Positions 16,308 to 33,953 of a stretch of DNA of 64,000 nt are shown here, in pieces. Source of the stretch: Lactobacillus amylolyticus DSM 11664 (GTDB lineage: Bacteria; Bacillota; Bacilli; Lactobacillales; Lactobacillaceae); the NCBI RefSeq assembly GCF_000178475.1, contig NZ_ADNY01000011.1, positions 1-64,000 on the forward strand, given 5' to 3'. Position numbers and translations under genes: made by a program. Position 1 is the stretch's first letter, and each line of letters opens with the position of its first letter. The notes below the pieces were generated by a model. It saw nothing but the letters and a program-made list of their open reading frames with translations, searched no databases and had not been told where the DNA came from.

Positions 16308-16846
16308 TGCGCATTTTTCGTGAGTGGGTATTAGCCATTGCTTTATTTGTGGCCTTAACTTTAGATGGCAGCATCTCACTATACTTACATCAGTTTATGA
16401 CTTGGAATACATACGGTGCTAGTTGCTGGATCATGCCGATTGGAATTATGCTGATTGGACTGTTTGATGATGTCAATAGCAAGGAAATCTGGTTAGCTCT
16501 TGGAGCAGGCATTGTGGCTGATATTTCTACATTAGGAATTATTGGTATTTATACAGTTTTCTTGCCACTTGCTTGTTGGGCTTGCCAAAGAGTTGCACGT
16601 TTTTTGCCAGAGGTATTTTGGTCACGTCTTTTGGTTGTCTTATTGGGTTTAACCTTGCTTGATCTTTATAGTTGGGTTGTTTTAAGTCTTGTTGGCATAA
16701 TTACAGTTTCAGTTCATATGATGTTAATGAGCTTATTGCTAAATCTAGGTTGGTCTATCATCTTTTTCGTTTTGACTTACTGGATTTGGGGAAATTTAGC
16801 AACTAACTACCCATTTATGGTTGATTTGAATGCTTATCGGCAATAA
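16307..16846 (+). CDS. mreD: Rod-shape-determining protein MreD
   Basis: A 179-aa polytopic membrane protein with five or six hydrophobic segments and the pattern of the MreD family (FDDVNSKEIWLALGAGIVADI near residue 49). MreD is the third component of the elongasome. It is translationally coupled to mreC and followed by a bidirectional terminator shared with the convergent small gene at 16893. Confidence 0.9.
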   Translation: MRIFREWVLAIALFVALTLDGSISLYLHQFMTWNTYGASCWIMPIGIMLIGLFDDVNSKEIWLALGAGIVADISTLGIIGIYTVFLPLACWACQRVARFLPEVFWSRLLVVLLGLTLLDLYSWVVLSLVGIITVSVHMMLMSLLLNLGWSIIFFVLTYWIWGNLATNYPFMVDLNAYRQ

Positions 16847-16847
16847 G

Positions 16848-16884
16848 AAAAAGACGCAGGAAATTATTTCCTACGTCTTTTTTG
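16848..16884. terminator. Bidirectional terminator between mreD and the DUF4044 gene
   Basis: AAAAAGACG(C)AGGAAAT and ATTTCCT(A)CGTCTTTTTT form a long stem with T tracts on both strands. It ends mreBCD on the plus strand and the convergent small gene on the minus strand. Confidence 0.85.
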
Positions 16885-17470: not shown

Positions 17471-17504
17471 AACCTTGAAGTATCAAGCTTCAAGGTTTTT
17501 TTAT
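17471..17504 (+). terminator. Terminator before the dcw cluster
   Basis: AACCTTGAAG, loop, CTTCAAGGTT and T7 form a perfect 10-bp hairpin that insulates the mraZ promoter region from the DUF3397 gene. Confidence 0.88.
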
Positions 17505-17546: not shown

Positions 17547-17605
17547 TGACCTTTTTAGGTCATTGTGTGGTAGGAAGTGGTGAATTGTGGTAAATTATTC
17601 TGTGG
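17547..17605 (+). promoter_or_regulatory. Probable MraZ operator and mraZ promoter region
   Basis: GTGGT occurs at 17567-17571, 17577-17581 and 17587-17591, exactly 10 bp apart, with a further GTGGG at 17602-17606 overlapping the ribosome site. MraZ is known to bind tandem TGGG/GTGG-type repeats at 10-bp period upstream of its own gene. Just upstream TGACCT-TTTT-AGGTCA (17547-17562) is a perfect inverted repeat that contains a -35-like TTGACC. A matching -10 is not obvious, so exact promoter placement is uncertain. Confidence 0.72.
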
Positions 17606-17619
17606 GAGGGGGCTAGACC

Positions 17620-18051
17620 ATGTTCATGGGTGAATACCATCATAATTTGGACAGTAAAGGTCGCTTGATTATACCAGCGAAACTGCGTAATCAAATTGGT
17701 GACAAAATGGTATTTACCAGAGGAATGGAAGGCTGCATTTTCGGCTATACATTAGATGTATGGCATGAAATTGAAGCCAAATTAGCGCAACTTCCGTTGA
17801 CTAAGAGAAATGTACGTAATTTTATGCGTTTATTTTATTCTGGTGCGATGGAAAGCGAATTTGACAAGCAAGGTCGTGTTAATCTGACCAAGACATTAAA
17901 ACAACACGCCGGGCTTGAAAAAGAATGTGTTATCGTAGGTGTTTCTAACCGAATCGAAATTTGGTCTAAGGAACGTTGGGAAGACTTTTCACAGTCTGCT
18001 AATGAAAACTATGATGACATCGCAGAAGATTTGGACGACATTGGACTATAA
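17620..18051 (+). CDS. mraZ: Transcriptional regulator / division protein MraZ
   Basis: A 143-aa protein with two tandem SpoVT-AbrB-like half domains. The first is MGEYHHNLDSKGRLIIPAKL and the second carries the repeated pattern SEFDKQGRVNLTKTLKQHA. MraZ forms a ring-shaped oligomer and represses or tunes the dcw operon by binding GTGG repeats, which are present just upstream. The ATG at 17620 follows GGGAGGGGG; a second in-frame ATG is two codons later. It is the first gene of the dcw cluster, and rsmH begins two bases after its stop. Confidence 0.96.
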   Translation: MFMGEYHHNLDSKGRLIIPAKLRNQIGDKMVFTRGMEGCIFGYTLDVWHEIEAKLAQLPLTKRNVRNFMRLFYSGAMESEFDKQGRVNLTKTLKQHAGLEKECVIVGVSNRIEIWSKERWEDFSQSANENYDDIAEDLDDIGL

Positions 18052-18052
18052 T

Positions 18053-19000
18053 ATGAAATTCAAACACACCAGTGTACTCTTACACGAAACTATAGATAAT
18101 TTAAAACCAAAAGACGGTGGTCTTTACGTCGATGCAACTTTCGGCGGTGGTGGACATGCGAAATATCTGCTAAGCAAGTTGAATACGGGGACACTAATTG
18201 GTTTTGATCAAGATGAATATGCAATAAAGGCAGCAAAGTTGAACTTTACTGATTTATTACAAGAGGATAGTAATCCTAGGTTACAACTCGTACATGACAA
18301 CTTTAGTCATTTGGAGCAGGACCTAGTAAAGCTGGGCTATCCAGATGGCATTGATGGCATTTATTATGACTTAGGTGTATCTTCACCACAATTTGATCAA
18401 GCTGAGCGGGGTTTTTCGTATCGATATAATGCAAGATTAGATATGAGAATGGATCAAAGCAAAGAGCTTGATGCATATCAATTAGTAAATCAAAGCAGTC
18501 AACGAGATTTGGCAAATATTTTGTACAAATATGGCGATGAAAAATTTTCACGTCAAATTGCTCATCGAATCGTTGAAAAACGCAGAGAAAAGCCAATTGA
18601 AACTACCTTCGAACTGGTAGATATCATCAAAGAAGCAATTCCTGCTTATGCACGAAGGACTGGCGGGCATCCAGCAAAGAAAAGTTTTCAGGCTCTAAGA
18701 GTGGCGGTTAACCATGAATTAGAAGTCTTGCAAACTTCTCTTGAGGAAGCAGTTAAGCTTTTACGTCCGAAAGGGCGGATCAGCGTAATAACGTTCCAGT
18801 CTGATGAAGACAAAATCGTTAAAAAAATATTTAAGAAATACTCTGAAGTAGAAGTACCCAGAGGGATGCCGATGATTCCAGATGGAATGAAACCAACACT
18901 TCGTTTGGTGAATCGCAAACCTATTACTGCTTCTGCTTTGGAATTGGAAAACAACAACCGCTCACACAGTGCAAAACTACGGGTTGCAGAGAAGATATAA
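18053..19000 (+). CDS. rsmH: 16S rRNA (cytosine(1402)-N4)-methyltransferase RsmH
   Basis: A 315-aa SAM-dependent methyltransferase. The SAM-binding motif VDATFGGGGHAKYLL lies near residue 24-38, and the DLGVSSPQFDQAERGFSYR segment is the conserved substrate region. HPAKKSFQALRVAVNHE and the C-terminal PTLRLVNRKPI motifs are also present. It methylates N4 of C1402 in the 30S P-site. The ATG at 18053 directly follows the mraZ stop; the frame is open further upstream inside mraZ but has no family homology there. ftsL begins 13 bases after its stop. Confidence 0.97.
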   Translation: MKFKHTSVLLHETIDNLKPKDGGLYVDATFGGGGHAKYLLSKLNTGTLIGFDQDEYAIKAAKLNFTDLLQEDSNPRLQLVHDNFSHLEQDLVKLGYPDGIDGIYYDLGVSSPQFDQAERGFSYRYNARLDMRMDQSKELDAYQLVNQSSQRDLANILYKYGDEKFSRQIAHRIVEKRREKPIETTFELVDIIKEAIPAYARRTGGHPAKKSFQALRVAVNHELEVLQTSLEEAVKLLRPKGRISVITFQSDEDKIVKKIFKKYSEVEVPRGMPMIPDGMKPTLRLVNRKPITASALELENNNRSHSAKLRVAEKI

Positions 19001-19013
19001 AGAGGAAATGTTT

Positions 19014-19376
19014 ATGGCTGATAGTTCTGCAAGAAGAATTGAATTTGAACCAAACAGAGAACCAAAATCTGTTAAAGTTAGGCGGATTGCTCCGAATCCA
19101 CATCAAGTGCGTTGGACTGGTCTAGAAAGAACTTTAGTTGTATTGGGAAGCGCCATTACCTTAGGAATGATGGTTTTCCTAGTTTCTTCAAGTATTTCTG
19201 CGACCTCAGCGCAGCAAAAGCTCTCAGGTGTTGAACAATCCATTACCAATAAACAAAACAATATCACTAGTCTCAATCAAGAGATTGGTGAATTGACTTC
19301 CATTTCACGCTTGAAGAAGATTGCTCGCAGTAAAGGTCTAACGTTAATTGAAAAAAACATTAGGACAGTTCGCTAA
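19014..19376 (+). CDS. ftsL: Cell division protein FtsL
   Basis: A 120-aa bitopic protein. It has a basic cytoplasmic N-terminus, one membrane helix (ERTLVVLGSAITLGMMVFLV, about residues 39-58), then an extracellular leucine-zipper-like coiled coil (KLSGVEQSITNKQNNITSL). FtsL bridges FtsQ(DivIB) and DivIC to activate FtsW and the division PBP. The ATG at 19014 is 9 bases after AGAGGA. Sequence conservation in this family is low; identity rests on architecture and position between rsmH and the PBP gene. The stop overlaps the pbp ATG by one base. Confidence 0.9.
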   Translation: MADSSARRIEFEPNREPKSVKVRRIAPNPHQVRWTGLERTLVVLGSAITLGMMVFLVSSSISATSAQQKLSGVEQSITNKQNNITSLNQEIGELTSISRLKKIARSKGLTLIEKNIRTVR

Positions 19377-21547
19377 TGAAAAAGAAAAATAATAGTTTAA
19401 AACTACAAAAATCCAAAGCCCACGGCTACCGCTTTACGGTGGGGAGAATTCTCCAACTAGCCGTGGCTTTGGTTTTTCTTGTGTTTGTGGGAAGATTTTT
19501 ATATATCGGTATTTCAAAAACAGTCCAAGGTCAAAATTTGTCGACTCGTACAAAACAGCTTTATATGCGCAATCAAGTGCTTAAAGCTAATCGAGGCACG
19601 ATTTATGATCGCAATGGTTTGGTAATTGCAGAGGACTCGCATCTTTATACAATTTACGCGATATTAGACAAGTCTTCGATTAATTATAAAAATAAACCAG
19701 AATACGTTGTTAACAAACAAAAAACAGCGAAGCAATTGGCAAAGGTTTTGCCGATTTCGGAAAAGAAGATTCTACAGTATCTTTCACCCAAGTCTAAAGC
19801 CTTTCAAGTTCAATTTGGTTCTGCCGGTAGCGGCTTAACTAAAGATCAAAAAGAAAAAATTGAAGCGATGAAATTGCCAGGAATTAAATTTATCGAAACT
19901 CCTTCACGGCTTTACCCGAATGGTGTTTTTGCATCGCACGTTGTTGGTTTAGCTCAACCAGAATACAACAAGAAGACTAATTCGCAGACAATTGTCGGAA
20001 CAATGGGACTAGAAGCGTGGTTCAATAAAACTTTGACTGGAACAGACGGTTATGAAATCTCTTCATTTGATGCTTCAGAGAATCAAACGCCTAATTCAAC
20101 TCAGACCTTTAAAGCTGCAAAGAACGGAAACAATTTATATTTGACGCTTGATTCGCAACTTCAGAGTCTATTGGAAGAAAAACTGAGTGAAGTTCAAAAA
20201 GCTTATGATCCAGTAAGTATGACGGCAGTCGTTGAAGATATGAAAACTGGGAAAGTAATGGCCGCTTCTCAAAGACCGACTTTTAATCCGCAAACCAAAA
20301 AGGGATTAACTAAATCATATCGAGATATATTGGTTCAAGATACCTATGAACCTGGTTCGGTCTTCAAAATCTTGACTTTGGCTGCGGCTATTAATAGTGG
20401 CAATTATCACCCTAACCAGTACTACAATTCAGGATCTGTAAATGTTGGTGGCTCGACAATCCATGACTGGCTCACTTCTGGTTGGGGAAGTATTCCTTTG
20501 TCTCAAGCATTCCCACGTTCAAGTAACGTTGGTTTCGTTCATATTGAGCAAGCAATGGGTGCCAAAACTTGGCGCAAATATTTGAATCGTTTTAGAATTG
20601 GTAAAAAGACGGACGTAACATTGCCAGGCGAACAAGCAGGACTGATTTCCTTTAAAGGAGTTACCGACCAAGCCGTAACGAGTTTTGGTCAGGGTGTTAA
20701 TGTCAATGTCATGCAAATTATGCAAGCATTCAGTAGTTTGGGCAATAATGGTCAAATGGTTAAACCACAATTTGTTGATAAGATTACTGATGCAAATGGC
20801 AAGACGATTAAATCCTACCAAGTTAAAAAAGTTGGAAAACCTGTTTATAGCAAAGCTACTCGTAAATTGTTGATTAAGAATATGAAACGAGTTTTAAACA
20901 AACAAATTGGTACCGGTTATGCATACAAGATGTCAGGTATTAGTTTGGGAGTAAAAACCGGTACGGCGCAAATTGCTAAACCAAATGGTGGCGGCTATTT
21001 AACTGGTGACAGCAACTATATCTTCTCAGTAGTCGGTGTTACGCCAACTAAGAATCCACGTTATTGCGTTTATTTGACATTAAAGCAACCAAGAAAGATG
21101 ACGGTATCTGCTGAAAAGATTCTTGCATCGATTTTCAAGCCAGTTATGCGTCTGGTTGTCATTATGTCTAAAAGTGAAAGTTCGGCTTCTAGTTCTTCAG
21201 TAGTTAAAACACCTAGCTTAACGCAGACGTCTTATGCTAAAGCCAAGAAAAAGGCAACTGCTGCTGGATTAAACGTTTTAAAGATTTCTAGTGGCGACAA
21301 AATTGTTAAACAGGGTGTCAAAAAGGAACAAAAAGTATCTTCCGGTTCAACTATCCTTCTTCTAGGTGATGGTACAGCTAAATGTCCAAACATGAAGGGT
21401 TGGAGCCTAGAAGAGCTGAATCAGTTTGCAAACTTGACTGGAGTTAAATTAACGATTAAAGGCTCAGGTACCGTTAATAAACAGAGTCTAAAAGTTGGTA
21501 CCAAGATAAAAACAGGGCAAAAGATTAGTATTAATTTAAAGGAGTAA
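19376..21547 (+). CDS. pbpX: Division-specific class B penicillin-binding protein with PASTA domains (PBP2x/FtsI)
   Basis: A 723-aa septal transpeptidase. Membrane helix at about 26-47, then the PBP dimer domain ([14 protein letters not shown]). The transpeptidase domain has S328-x-x-K331 (EPGSVFK), S382-S-N384 and K527-T-G529. Two PASTA domains follow from about residue 607, as in PBP2x. It cross-links septal peptidoglycan with FtsW. It starts on the last base of the ftsL stop. Its first 30 codons contain a strong inverted repeat (19413-19472) with a T tract, and the codons there are unusually GC-rich for this genome. The gene symbol is by analogy with pbp2x/ftsI. Confidence 0.95.
19406..19479 (+). 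terminator. Intragenic terminator-like cruciform inside the pbp 5' coding region
   Basis: CCAAAGCCCACGGCTA (19413-19428) pairs with TAGCCGTGGCTTTGG (19458-19472), giving 15 bp with one bulged C. TTTTTCTT follows directly, and an A5 run precedes the left arm. The loop contains CCG-CTTTA-CGG and the perfect 12-bp palindrome GGAGAATTCTCC (19443-19454). It lies 31-103 bases into the coding sequence. The geometry is that of a Rho-independent terminator, but it sits inside an essential ORF, so partial attenuation, mRNA stabilisation or translation-coupled antitermination are the likely roles. Confidence 0.6.
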
Positions 21548-30959: not shown

Positions 30960-31152
30960 TGACAGTAAAACTTAAGGGCAATTCAGCGAGTTAGCGATGG
31001 TGGAAGGCTAACAAAAGAGCCTAAAAGTTGATCAGCTGCCGATTGGGTCTAAGCGTTTAGTTGCATGATACGCAACGATAAGTGGAGCTTTTGGCTCAAA
31101 TTAGGTGGTACCACGGTTAACCTCGTCCTAAATTAGGGACGAGGCTTTTTTG
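30960..31152 (+). promoter_or_regulatory. T-box riboswitch controlling ileS (short Stem I)
   Basis: The T-box core AGGTGGTACCACGG is at 31103-31116. It is followed by the terminator CCTCGTCCTAAA, loop, TTAGGGACGAGG and T6 (31120-31152). Upstream, GGCA...TGCC closes a short Stem I in which ATC (31031-31033) sits on the 3' side of the internal loop. ATC is an isoleucine codon and the likely specifier. The whole leader is about 190 nt, shorter than the valS one. T-box and terminator are certain; the specifier is a hand fold. Confidence 0.88.
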
Positions 31153-31169: not shown

Positions 31170-33953
31170 ATGAGAATCAAGGATACTTTGAATTTAGGCA
31201 AAACTAAATTTAAGATGCGCGGCAATCTTCCTGTCCGTGAAGCTCAATGGCAAAAACAATGGGAAGAAAATAAATTATATGAACAAAGATTAAAGTTAAA
31301 CGAAGGCAAGCCTCGTTTTGACTTGCATGATGGCCCTCCATTTGCTAACGGCAACATTCATATGGGCCATGCCTTAAACAAGATTTCCAAGGATATCATT
31401 GTTCGTTACAAGAACATGGATGGCTATTACGCACCTTATGTTCCTGGATGGGATACTCACGGCCTTCCTGTTGAACAACAACTTGCTAAAAAGGGCGTAG
31501 ATCGTAAGACAATGGATCGTGCAAAGTATCGTGAACTTTGTCATGAATACGCTGAAAAGCAAATTAAAAAGCAAATGACCGACTTCAAGCGCTTAGGTGT
31601 AATGGCTGACTGGGATCATCCTTACATTACTTTACAACCTGAATTCGAAGCTGAAGAAATCAGGATTTTTGGCGAAATGTATAAGAAGGGCTACATCTAT
31701 AAGGGTAAGAAGCCTGTTTACTGGTCATGGTCAAGTGAATCAACTTTAGCAGAGGCCGAAGTTGAATATAAAGACGTTAAAGCAAATTCAATTTTCGTTG
31801 CCTTCCCAGTTAAAGATGGCAAAGGAATTATCGATCCAGAAAATACCTATTTTGTAATCTGGACTACTACTCCTTGGACTATTCCAGCTAATGAAGCAAT
31901 TTGTGTAAACCCTAAGTTTGATTACGTAGTAGTAAACGTTGGCGACAAGAACTACGTTGTAGCTGCAGGCTTGCTTGATAGCGTTGCTGAACAAATTGGT
32001 TGGAAAGATTATAAAGTAATCAAGACTATCAAGGGTGCAGACATGGAATACATGACTGCTAAGCATCCTCTTTACGATAAAGAAAGCTTGGTTATTGAAG
32101 GCTTCCATGTAACTTTGGATGATGGTACTGGTTTGGTTCATACTGCACCTGGCTTTGGTGAAGATGACTTTAATGTTGGTCAAAAGTACCACTTGCCAAT
32201 TTTTAGTCCAGTTGATGCACAAGGAAAATATACTGATGAAGTACCTGAATTAGCCGGCATGTTTTATCAGGATGTCGATAAGTTAATGGTGCAAAAGCTT
32301 AAGGACTGTGGAGCTTTGCTTAAGCTCAAAGTCTTTACCCACTCATACCCACATGATTGGCGTACTAAGAAACCAGTTATTTTCAGGGCTACTACGCAAT
32401 GGTTTGCTTCAATTGAACCATTCAGAAAACAAATTCTTGATCAAATTGACAAGGCCAGCTTCATTCCTTCATGGGGTAAAACTCGTCTTTACAACATGAT
32501 TAAAGATCGTGGCGACTGGGTAATTTCCCGTCAACGTGCTTGGGGTGTTCCACTTCCAATTTTCTACGCAGAAGATGGCACTCCAATTGTTGCTCCTGAA
32601 ACTATTGAACATGTAGCTAAGATCGTTGAAAAAGAAGGAACAATTGCTTGGTACAAGCACACTGCTAAAGAATTGCTTCCAGAAGGCTTTACTTCAGAAC
32701 ATTCACCAAATGGCGAATATACTAAAGAAAAAGATATCTTGGATGTTTGGTTTGACTCTGGGACATCATGGGCTGGTGTCATGAGAAAACGCGATGGGCT
32801 TCATTTCCCAGCTGATCTCTATCTTGAAGGCTCTGACCAATACCGTGGCTGGTTCAACTCTAGTTTAATTACTTCAGTTGCTACCACTGGCTTGGCACCT
32901 TACAAACAAGTTTTATCACAAGGCTTTGTGTTGGATGACAAGGGCCACAAGATGTCTAAATCACTTGGCAATGTTATTTCACCAAATGACGTTATCAAGA
33001 AGATGGGTGCCGAAATTATTCGTCTCTGGGTAGCTCAAGCAGATACTTCTTCTGACGTTGCCGTATCTTATGATATTTTGAGTCAATCTGCAGAAAGCTA
33101 CCGTAAGATTAGAAATACCTTCCGTTACATGTTGGCCAACACAAGCGATTTTGATCCAGAAAAAAATAGGATTGCTTATGAAGATTTGCGTTCTGTCGAC
33201 CAATACATGGAAGTAAAGCTCAATGATTTGATTAGAGACTGTCTTGCTGCTTACGATAAATATGACTTCTCAACTGTCTTCAAGAAGGTCTTTAACTTTA
33301 TTTCAAATGATCTTTCATCATTCTACTTAGACTTTGCTAAGGATGTTCTTTATATTGAAGCTAAAGACAGTCATGCACGTCGTTCAATGCAAACTGTAAT
33401 TTACGATGCAGCAGTTAAATTAGCTAAAATTTTGACACCAATCTTGCCACACACGATGGAAGAAGTATGGAGCTTTTTGAAAGAAAAAGAAAACTATGTC
33501 CAACTTGCTAACATGCCAGAAGTTGTAACTTACGAAAATCGTGAAGAATTGCTTGAAAACTGGCATAAATTCATGAATCTTCGTGATGATGTTTTGAAGG
33601 CATTGGAAGACGCAAGAAATAATAAACTGATTGGTAAATCATTTGAAGCAGCTGTTACGATCTATCCTGATAAAGAAACTAAGTCAATGCTCGATGATTT
33701 GAAGGCAAACTTCAGAGAAATCTTGATTGTTTCTAAGCTAACAATTGTTTATGGTGAAGCTCCAGCAAATGCTGAAAAGCTTAATAATGCTGCAATTGTT
33801 GTTGAACACGCAGAAGGCGAAGTTTGTCCACGTTGTCGAATGATCAGAAACGACATCGGCAAGGATCCAAAATTGCCAATGCTTTGTGGTCGTTGTGCTG
33901 AAATTGTTGAGGCTAATTTCCCAGAAGCTGCCGAAGAGGGACTTGAAAAATAA
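31170..33953 (+). CDS. ileS: Isoleucyl-tRNA synthetase
   Basis: A 927-aa class Ia synthetase. The HIGH motif is HMGH in [17 protein letters not shown], the KMSKS motif is [11 protein letters not shown], and the editing domain has [14 protein letters not shown]. The C-terminus has a zinc-binding cluster, CPRCR...CGRCAE, typical of bacterial IleRS with four cysteines. It charges tRNA-Ile and edits valine. A T-box leader controls it. The stop overlaps the next ATG (TAATG). This is the short-branch bacterial form, expected to be mupirocin sensitive by family. Confidence 0.98.

Follow-up and report, generated by a model that had tools for sequence, protein, structure and literature searches.

The question raised by this locus is why a terminator-like hairpin lies inside the reading frame of an essential division gene, and whether it is kept there as RNA. 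The window, that is, the whole stretch of Lactobacillus amylolyticus DNA that was analysed (64,000 nt), carries at this place the junction between ftsL and the gene of a septal penicillin-binding protein, here called pbp, in the following setting:

17471-17497, + strand: canonical terminator upstream of mraZ
19014-19376, + strand: ftsL (TIGR02209, 47.1 bits against a cut-off of 42.45; start codon read by eye)
19376-21547, + strand: septal class B PBP gene (FtsI / PBP2X / PbpB-like), which contains the hairpin; its product has PBP dimer, transpeptidase and PASTA domains (PF00905, PF03717, PF03793)

The best NCBIfam match of the pbp product is strep_PBP2X, at 549 bits and thus under the cut-off of 1050 of that model. 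rsmH (PF01795) lies directly before ftsL. From sequence and order, we take the further dcw neighbours to be, probably, mraZ, mraY, murD, murG, divIB, ftsA and ftsZ. The terminator at 17471-17497 is likely the upstream boundary of the operon. GTGG-type repeats are present before mraZ (17560-17619), and we presume that they resemble MraZ boxes. The hairpin and its surroundings consist of the following parts:

19409-19504, + strand: synonymous-constraint block, about codons 12-43, ending about 30 nt beyond the stem
19413-19428, + strand: 5' arm of the stem, CCAAAGCCCACGGCTA, codons 13-18, base 19421 bulged in the preferred register
19429-19439, + strand: inner hairpin 1, CCG...CGG, in the loop of the main stem
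19443-19454, + strand: inner hairpin 2, GGAG/CTCC within the palindrome GGAGAATTCTCC, in the loop of the main stem
19458-19472, + strand: 3' arm of the stem, TAGCCGTGGCTTTGG
19473-19480, + strand: T-run TTTTTCTT, directly after the stem, codons 33-35

The two arms form 15 pairs with a single bulged base, and the 5' arm starts 37 nt past the pbp AUG. The RNA of 19400-19485 folds at -36.8 kcal/mol, compared with -19.0 +/- 3.1 for dinucleotide shuffles (z -5.74), and 0 of 200 shuffles equal it. A sequence-only reading of the window had described this hairpin as a 15-bp stem with one bulge, a palindrome in the loop and a T-run behind, all of which is borne out; the codons 11-34 that it gave hold for the wider interval and not for the arms, which occupy codons 13-33. 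When both strands of the 64 kb were scored by the energy of a hairpin closed immediately before a T-run, the pbp hairpin ranked first among the terminator-like sites (+ strand, -33.1 kcal/mol) and its own - strand reading second (-30.7); the next other place, outside the called ORFs, reaches -23.6. It is absent from a simple terminator scan, probably because that scan allows only loops of 3-8 bases. Rfam matched no family at the site. A promoter just behind the T-run was considered by eye and dropped; the promoter scan shows none on the + strand of 18015-19665.

Elsewhere in the window, the only Rfam match at gathering score is a Lacto-usp RNA (RF01710; 899-989, - strand, 91.7 bits). At 31080-31147 (+ strand, -21.9), a strong terminator-like hairpin that no called ORF covers stands shortly ahead of a large ORF (31170-33950), with no Rfam family at gathering score. 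A hairpin at 16848-16882, between an A-run and a T-run after an ORF ending at 16846, is a candidate bidirectional terminator; its weak Rfam matches, on both strands, are far under the gathering scores.

Relatives were collected in several searches. The pbp gene was found in 397 of 397 Lactobacillaceae genomes (family search), in 74 of 75 Lactobacillus genomes (genus search) and in all 118 genomes of an order search. A first scan of GTDB contigs had given 25 loci; more came with the later searches, and 140 further stretches (80 + 60) were fetched. In all, 160 loci and the window yielded 130 distinct pbp genes once genes identical over most of their length had been dropped. These divide into 75 whose product is at least 55% identical to the PBP of the window (window included), meaning Lactobacillus plus one neighbour, L055, whose genome G031 is outside the genus list, and 55 of other Lactobacillaceae. 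Another 60 pbp genes from other Lactobacillales come from the order search and are outside both sets. For rate work, 60 representatives of the 75 with less than 93% mutual nucleotide identity were used; for pair counts, the 75 genes were reduced to 54 distinct gap-free blocks by removal of identical ones (column 1 = 19406). In 58 of the 60 representatives, ftsL and pbp share 1 nt, the ftsL stop codon running into the pbp ATG.

A hairpin in a coding sequence may simply follow from the protein. Lys, Arg and Asn codons before a membrane helix are complementary to the Phe, Leu and Val codons of that helix, so that pairing could be a by-product of coding. We compared the best hairpin plus T-run at about codons 14-40 with 200 resamplings in which the protein was kept and codons were drawn from the same gene. 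Weaker hairpins do arise in this way: across the 75 genes the median of the null means is -11.3 kcal/mol. The median energy of the natural hairpins, however, is -24.8 kcal/mol; at most 2 of 200 resamplings matched the natural hairpin in 63 of the 75 genes and at most 10 in 70, and in 73 none of the other windows of the gene, out of about 26, does as well. The weak members are L078, L075, L080, L107 and L055. Among the 60 representatives the corresponding counts are 49 and 55, whereas the FtsL membrane segment of the same 60 gave 0 and 4, and 120 windows drawn at random from these pbp genes gave 0 and 7. The resampling counts treat related genes as independent, so binomial p values from them are only indicative. 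For the genus, the resampling and its two controls exclude the coding by-product, to which we give next to no credence there.

Outside the genus, at most 2 of 200 resamplings matched in 20 of the 55 pbp genes of other Lactobacillaceae, with 35 above this, and in 11 of the 60 of other Lactobacillales, with 49 above it. The hairpin is thus near-universal in the genus and shows in roughly one gene in three of the other Lactobacillaceae and one in five of the other Lactobacillales. For many of the non-significant lineages, pairing as a by-product of coding stays likely. A hairpin-only score, with the T-run condition removed, was matched by at most 1 of 60 resamplings in 17 of the 20 representatives obtained by taking every third of the 60, in 22 of the 55 and in 13 of the 60 genes.

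The codons themselves are held as well. Codon sharing between representatives, measured at positions with the same amino acid, shows an excess of +0.27 to +0.28 in the top 24-codon windows (starts 10-23), compared with a baseline of -0.020 (sd 0.016) in 642 windows beyond codon 45. The codons in the arms had been called GC-rich for this genome, and the block does hold unusual codons: Ser13 is TCC in 52 of 52 (7% of usage beyond codon 60), Leu26 CTC in 42 of 54 (4%), Gly23 GGG in 48 of 60 (13%) and Arg24 AGA in 56 of 60 (20%). In the 3' arm, Ala31 is GCT in 60 of 60 (usage 41%) and Leu32 TTG in 58 of 59 (26%). The T-run is encoded by Val33 GTT in 60 of 60 (49%), Phe34 TTT in 59 of 60 (74%) and Leu35 CTT in 54 of 58 (15%); this fixed CTT puts a C into the T-run, which TTA would lengthen. 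Past the T-run, codons 36-43 (19481-19504) prefer GTA, AGA, TTT and TTA, for example Arg40 AGA (47 of 60), Phe41 TTT (51 of 51) and Leu42 TTA (45 of 56). The constraint, running to about codon 43, reaches beyond what a terminator needs. An overlapping reading frame was rejected as its cause: the five alternative frames are open over 120 nt in 3, 11, 1, 3 and 0 of the 60.

The pairing has been kept while the bases changed. Across the 54 blocks, 90.9% of the cells of the 22-pair structure are paired, and sliding the structure by 1-3 columns leaves 25-46%. Two-sided changes occur in 10 pairs (4.7 +/- 1.0 when shuffled, 0 of 500 reaching it) and 44 cells (19.0 +/- 4.9). An alternative register with base 19420 bulged gives 90.0% paired and likewise 10 pairs with two-sided changes; the register with 19421 bulged, used for the counts given here, was preferred after RNAalifold. 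There are 146 departures from the stem of the window, 87 of which keep the pair (51 G-U, 36 two-sided) and 59 of which break it (45 one-sided, 14 two-sided). The best kept part is next to the T-run, where all 7 stem pairs are intact in 52 of the 54 blocks and 6 in the other 2, and TTTTT follows the stem in 53 of 54. The best covarying pairs are 19424/19462 (GC26 AU15 GU8, other 5) and 19420/19465 (CG20 UA7 AU6 UG5, other 16), the two bases of the latter being third codon positions. The sequence-only reading had proposed checking whether the pairing persists in related Lactobacillus genomes; the stem does not mutate freely there, and the arms carry compensatory changes. In keeping its pairing by compensatory change, the hairpin agrees with a conserved structured RNA element.

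Shared ancestry was considered with a quick tree of the first and second positions of codons 61-600, and the tree-aware figures exclude pair 19425/19461. On this tree, built from other codons, the two sides of pair 19424/19462 changed 13 and 12 times; of 9 independent comparisons, 5.8 show them changing together and 0.1 against each other (p 0.031 at the median, from 0.031 to 0.22). Other pairs were not significant: 19420/19465 (together 3.3, against 0.4, of 11 in C/G coding; 1.1 and 1.0 of 8 in T/A coding; 1.9 and 0.6 of 5 in A/T coding), 19444/19453 (2.5 and 0.0 of 7), 19426/19460 (2.1 and 1.0 of 4) and 19427/19459 (1.0 and 0.6 of 3). Tree-aware support is clear for pair 19424/19462 only. 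No other stem pair comes near the top after APC correction, where this one is 4th of 3160; relatedness still shows in the covariation, because the top three APC pairs are non-structural. RNAalifold, unaided, supports part of the stem only, retaining 13 pairs, and its covariation term is small (-0.37).

Within the loop, the two inner hairpins fare differently. Inner hairpin 1 is weakly kept, with 82.7% of cells paired and the middle pair failing in 26 of the 54 blocks; inner hairpin 2 has 90.3% of cells paired (19444/19453: GC34 AU6 GU5, other 9). The mostly kept inner hairpin 2 and the long constrained block are what one may expect if the mRNA were bound here by a regulatory protein or sRNA that autoregulates division and wall genes. 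However, inner hairpin 1 is poorly kept, the site matches no Rfam family and has no known partner, and we regard such a binding site as very improbable.

To see how far the element extends, a covariance (structure) model, R1, and a sequence-only model of the same alignment, R2, were used; their figures are for complete sets (55 loci of other Lactobacillaceae, and R1 alone on 60 more) and supersede those for 35 chosen loci. R1 has a strong match at pbp in 74 of 75 Lactobacillus genomes (61.5-108.5 bits; pbp identity by coordinate comparison by eye), and the one genome lacking it also lacks a pbp match. These genus matches are mostly by construction, as their own blocks built the model, and they show one strong place per genome. 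Since this place is always pbp, a mobile or repeated element was rejected. Thirteen weaker R1 matches were listed under stricter filters, 8 being the reverse strand of the pbp site and 5 elsewhere; the best R1 match away from pbp reaches 39.2 bits in one Lactobacillus genome (G406:C22:19017-19085).

R1 was built without the 55 loci of other Lactobacillaceae; among these it matched 8 at E<0.01, with E-values that are rough (L117, L134, L112, L140, L154, L129, L123 and L114), all on the right strand and at the homologous codons, and R2 matched 1, L114. R1 gave 0 matches at E<0.01 in the 60 loci of other Lactobacillales. Several groups carry hairpins of other sequence at the same place, given here with the genes in which at most 2 of 200 resamplings matched:

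AGTAGGAG/CTCCTGCT-TTTTT: L118, L144, L147; 3 of 3
AAGGCA/TGCCTT: L117 group; 3 of 6
GAACAAYC/GRTTGTTC-TTTTT and variants: L185, L189, L205 group; 4 of 8
GGCAATAGA/TCTATTGC: L203, L204, L212; 1 of 3

Other clusters gave no hairpin signal in the resampling, such as ten genes around L172 (0 of 10). Taken together, the synonymous resampling, the synonymous constraint, the compensatory changes and the same register in other genera uphold the earlier proposal that RNA structure is selected; in the genus, selection acts on the RNA over and above the protein that it encodes.

What is the structure for? A stable stem with a U-run immediately behind it is the form of an intrinsic terminator, and this is what the fold, the window ranking and the TTTTT in 53 of 54 blocks show. 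That the stem pairs beside the T-run are the best kept fits what a terminator needs. We therefore consider it fairly likely, judging from these sequence features, that transcription terminates at the hairpin, which would probably set the output of the cell-wall genes that follow. The pbp stem is branched and long for a terminator. In addition, T-richness over the 36 nt that surround and follow the end of the stem does not exceed that of synonymous resampling (p<=0.2 in 0 of 20 genes of the genus, 11 of 55 and 0 of 60 others), so that within a single genome only the hairpin, and not the T-run, stands out.

This bears on a role other than termination, namely an RNA processing, stability or ribosome-pausing element, such as a place between ftsL and pbp where an RNase cuts, or a ribosome pause ahead of the membrane helix. 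Besides the T-richness that is not in excess, such a role would accommodate the codon constraint extending about 30 nt beyond the stem. It would also suit L162, L174 and L176 of another Lactobacillales group, whose pbp genes, viewed by eye, have at the same codons a long pairing of the GAGGAGAGGCGC/GCGCTTTTCCTC type with no T-run directly behind it; at 59, 5 and 48 of 200, these genes do not stand clear of resampling. However, few parts are as fixed in the genus as the T-run codons and the foot of the stem beside them, and we hold a non-terminator role to be improbable.

For termination, we propose the following. RNA polymerase coming from mraZ-rsmH-ftsL would transcribe the first 105 nt of pbp, whereupon the 15-bp stem would fold; the U-run behind it would free some of the polymerases, and the mRNA would then end about 100 nt past ftsL. 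A ribosome reinitiating at the overlapping pbp AUG, if at about codon 9 in time, would cover the 5' arm, and the polymerase would proceed into pbp-mraY-murD-murG and the division genes beyond. With its start 37 nt past the AUG that runs into the ftsL stop, the hairpin is at a place where melting by ribosomes could occur. By default the RNA would take the terminating form: when the wider context is folded, the minimum-energy structure includes the arm-arm stem in 57 of the 60 representatives. No conserved antiterminator was found in the minimum-energy folds of the 150 nt upstream in the 60 representatives: the 5' arm is without any upstream-paired base in 27 of them, and the commonest partner base is seen 7 times. 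Gating of the putative terminator by ribosomes may be offered only tentatively, and we put its chances somewhat below even. The sequence-only reading had suggested a translation-coupled attenuator that would lower PBP, mraY, murD and murG together; this suggestion is supported in part, namely for the selected RNA structure and for its position within reach of ribosomes.

The same structural evidence would be given by a constitutive operon-internal terminator that does not sense ribosomes, keeps FtsL (with MraZ and RsmH) above PBP, MraY, MurD and MurG, and leaves a stable 3' end on the upstream mRNA. Its position in the next ORF would follow from the 1-nt overlap in 58 of 60 representatives, because overlapping genes leave no spacer. 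In clostridial ABC-importer operons, intergenic internal terminators reportedly set the ratios of flanking transcripts (PMC9045158). In many low-GC Gram-positives RNA polymerase runs ahead of the ribosomes (PMC13323073), and this would speak for partial termination of the constitutive kind and against gating by ribosomes. On the other hand, the 5' arm is within reach of a ribosome from the pbp AUG, and translation should matter if coupling exists. We judge the constitutive terminator unlikely, and rank it second to ribosome-dependent read-through. Our preferred reading stands at about even chances: a selected intrinsic terminator inside pbp would end some of the transcription once mraZ-rsmH-ftsL has been passed, and ribosomes would melt it.

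No Rho above the cut-off was found in the 75 genomes of the genus, where Rho polarity is therefore probably unavailable; the weak Rho-like matches there (up to 43.5 bits) are probably F1-ATPase subunits. Rho is present in 6 of 56 other Lactobacillaceae (the 55-gene set and G031) and in 49 of 60 other Lactobacillales. The hairpin shows no association with Rho in the other Lactobacillaceae (2 of 6 with Rho, 18 of 49 without) or in the other Lactobacillales (8 of 49 with, 3 of 11 without). The idea of the hairpin as a substitute for Rho accordingly found no support within either set.

A wider and more doubtful possibility is that, in this Rho-less genus, a ribosome-melted terminator in the septal PBP frame serves as a polarity checkpoint of the dcw operon, with other lineages keeping or re-evolving such hairpins. 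If this were true, division and wall-synthesis genes would be transcribed only while ftsL-pbp is translated, and other Lactobacillales would keep or re-evolve terminator-like hairpins of unrelated sequence at the same codons. It would be a conserved point of transcription control that separates FtsL from the septal transpeptidase and lies in essential coding sequence, in a genus without recognisable Rho. The hairpin offers a concrete place at which to ask how division and wall genes of one operon are balanced in low-GC Gram-positives, and it bears on ribosome protection of in-gene terminators where polymerase may outrun ribosomes.

A literature search, mainly of the main texts of open articles (including PMC2965389, PMC12207403 and PMC7724050), found no terminator or attenuator at the ftsL-pbp junction. 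Like an intrinsic (Rho-independent) terminator, the pbp hairpin has a stable stem and then a U-run; it differs in being within essential coding sequence, branched, 60 nt long and with a conserved C in the T-run, and it is known here from sequence. The trp and his leaders are ribosome-mediated transcription attenuators, and bmrC/bmrD of Bacillus subtilis reportedly has another. In these, as is proposed for pbp, a terminator is near a start codon and a ribosome could decide its fate. In the pbp case, however, the leader would be ftsL and the first codons of the regulated gene itself, with no conserved antiterminator and no control codons identified. The clostridial terminators are operon-internal and set the ratio of flanking genes, as the pbp hairpin would, but are described as intergenic (PMC9045158), whereas the pbp hairpin is in a reading frame and constrains its codons. 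Like the putative pbp terminator, the UpsM terminator of Rhodobacter sphaeroides is Rho-independent and in a division and cell-wall cluster; UpsM derives from the 5' UTR of the dcw cluster in Rhodobacteraceae (PMC5089854), in contrast to a hairpin within coding sequence in Lactobacillales. Finally, although the abstract of an E. coli EF-P study mentions no conserved element at a fixed codon position, unlike the pbp hairpin, it describes premature termination when coupling is lost, and there, as is proposed for pbp, the position of the ribosome decides the fate of a hairpin in translated RNA (PMC5021804).
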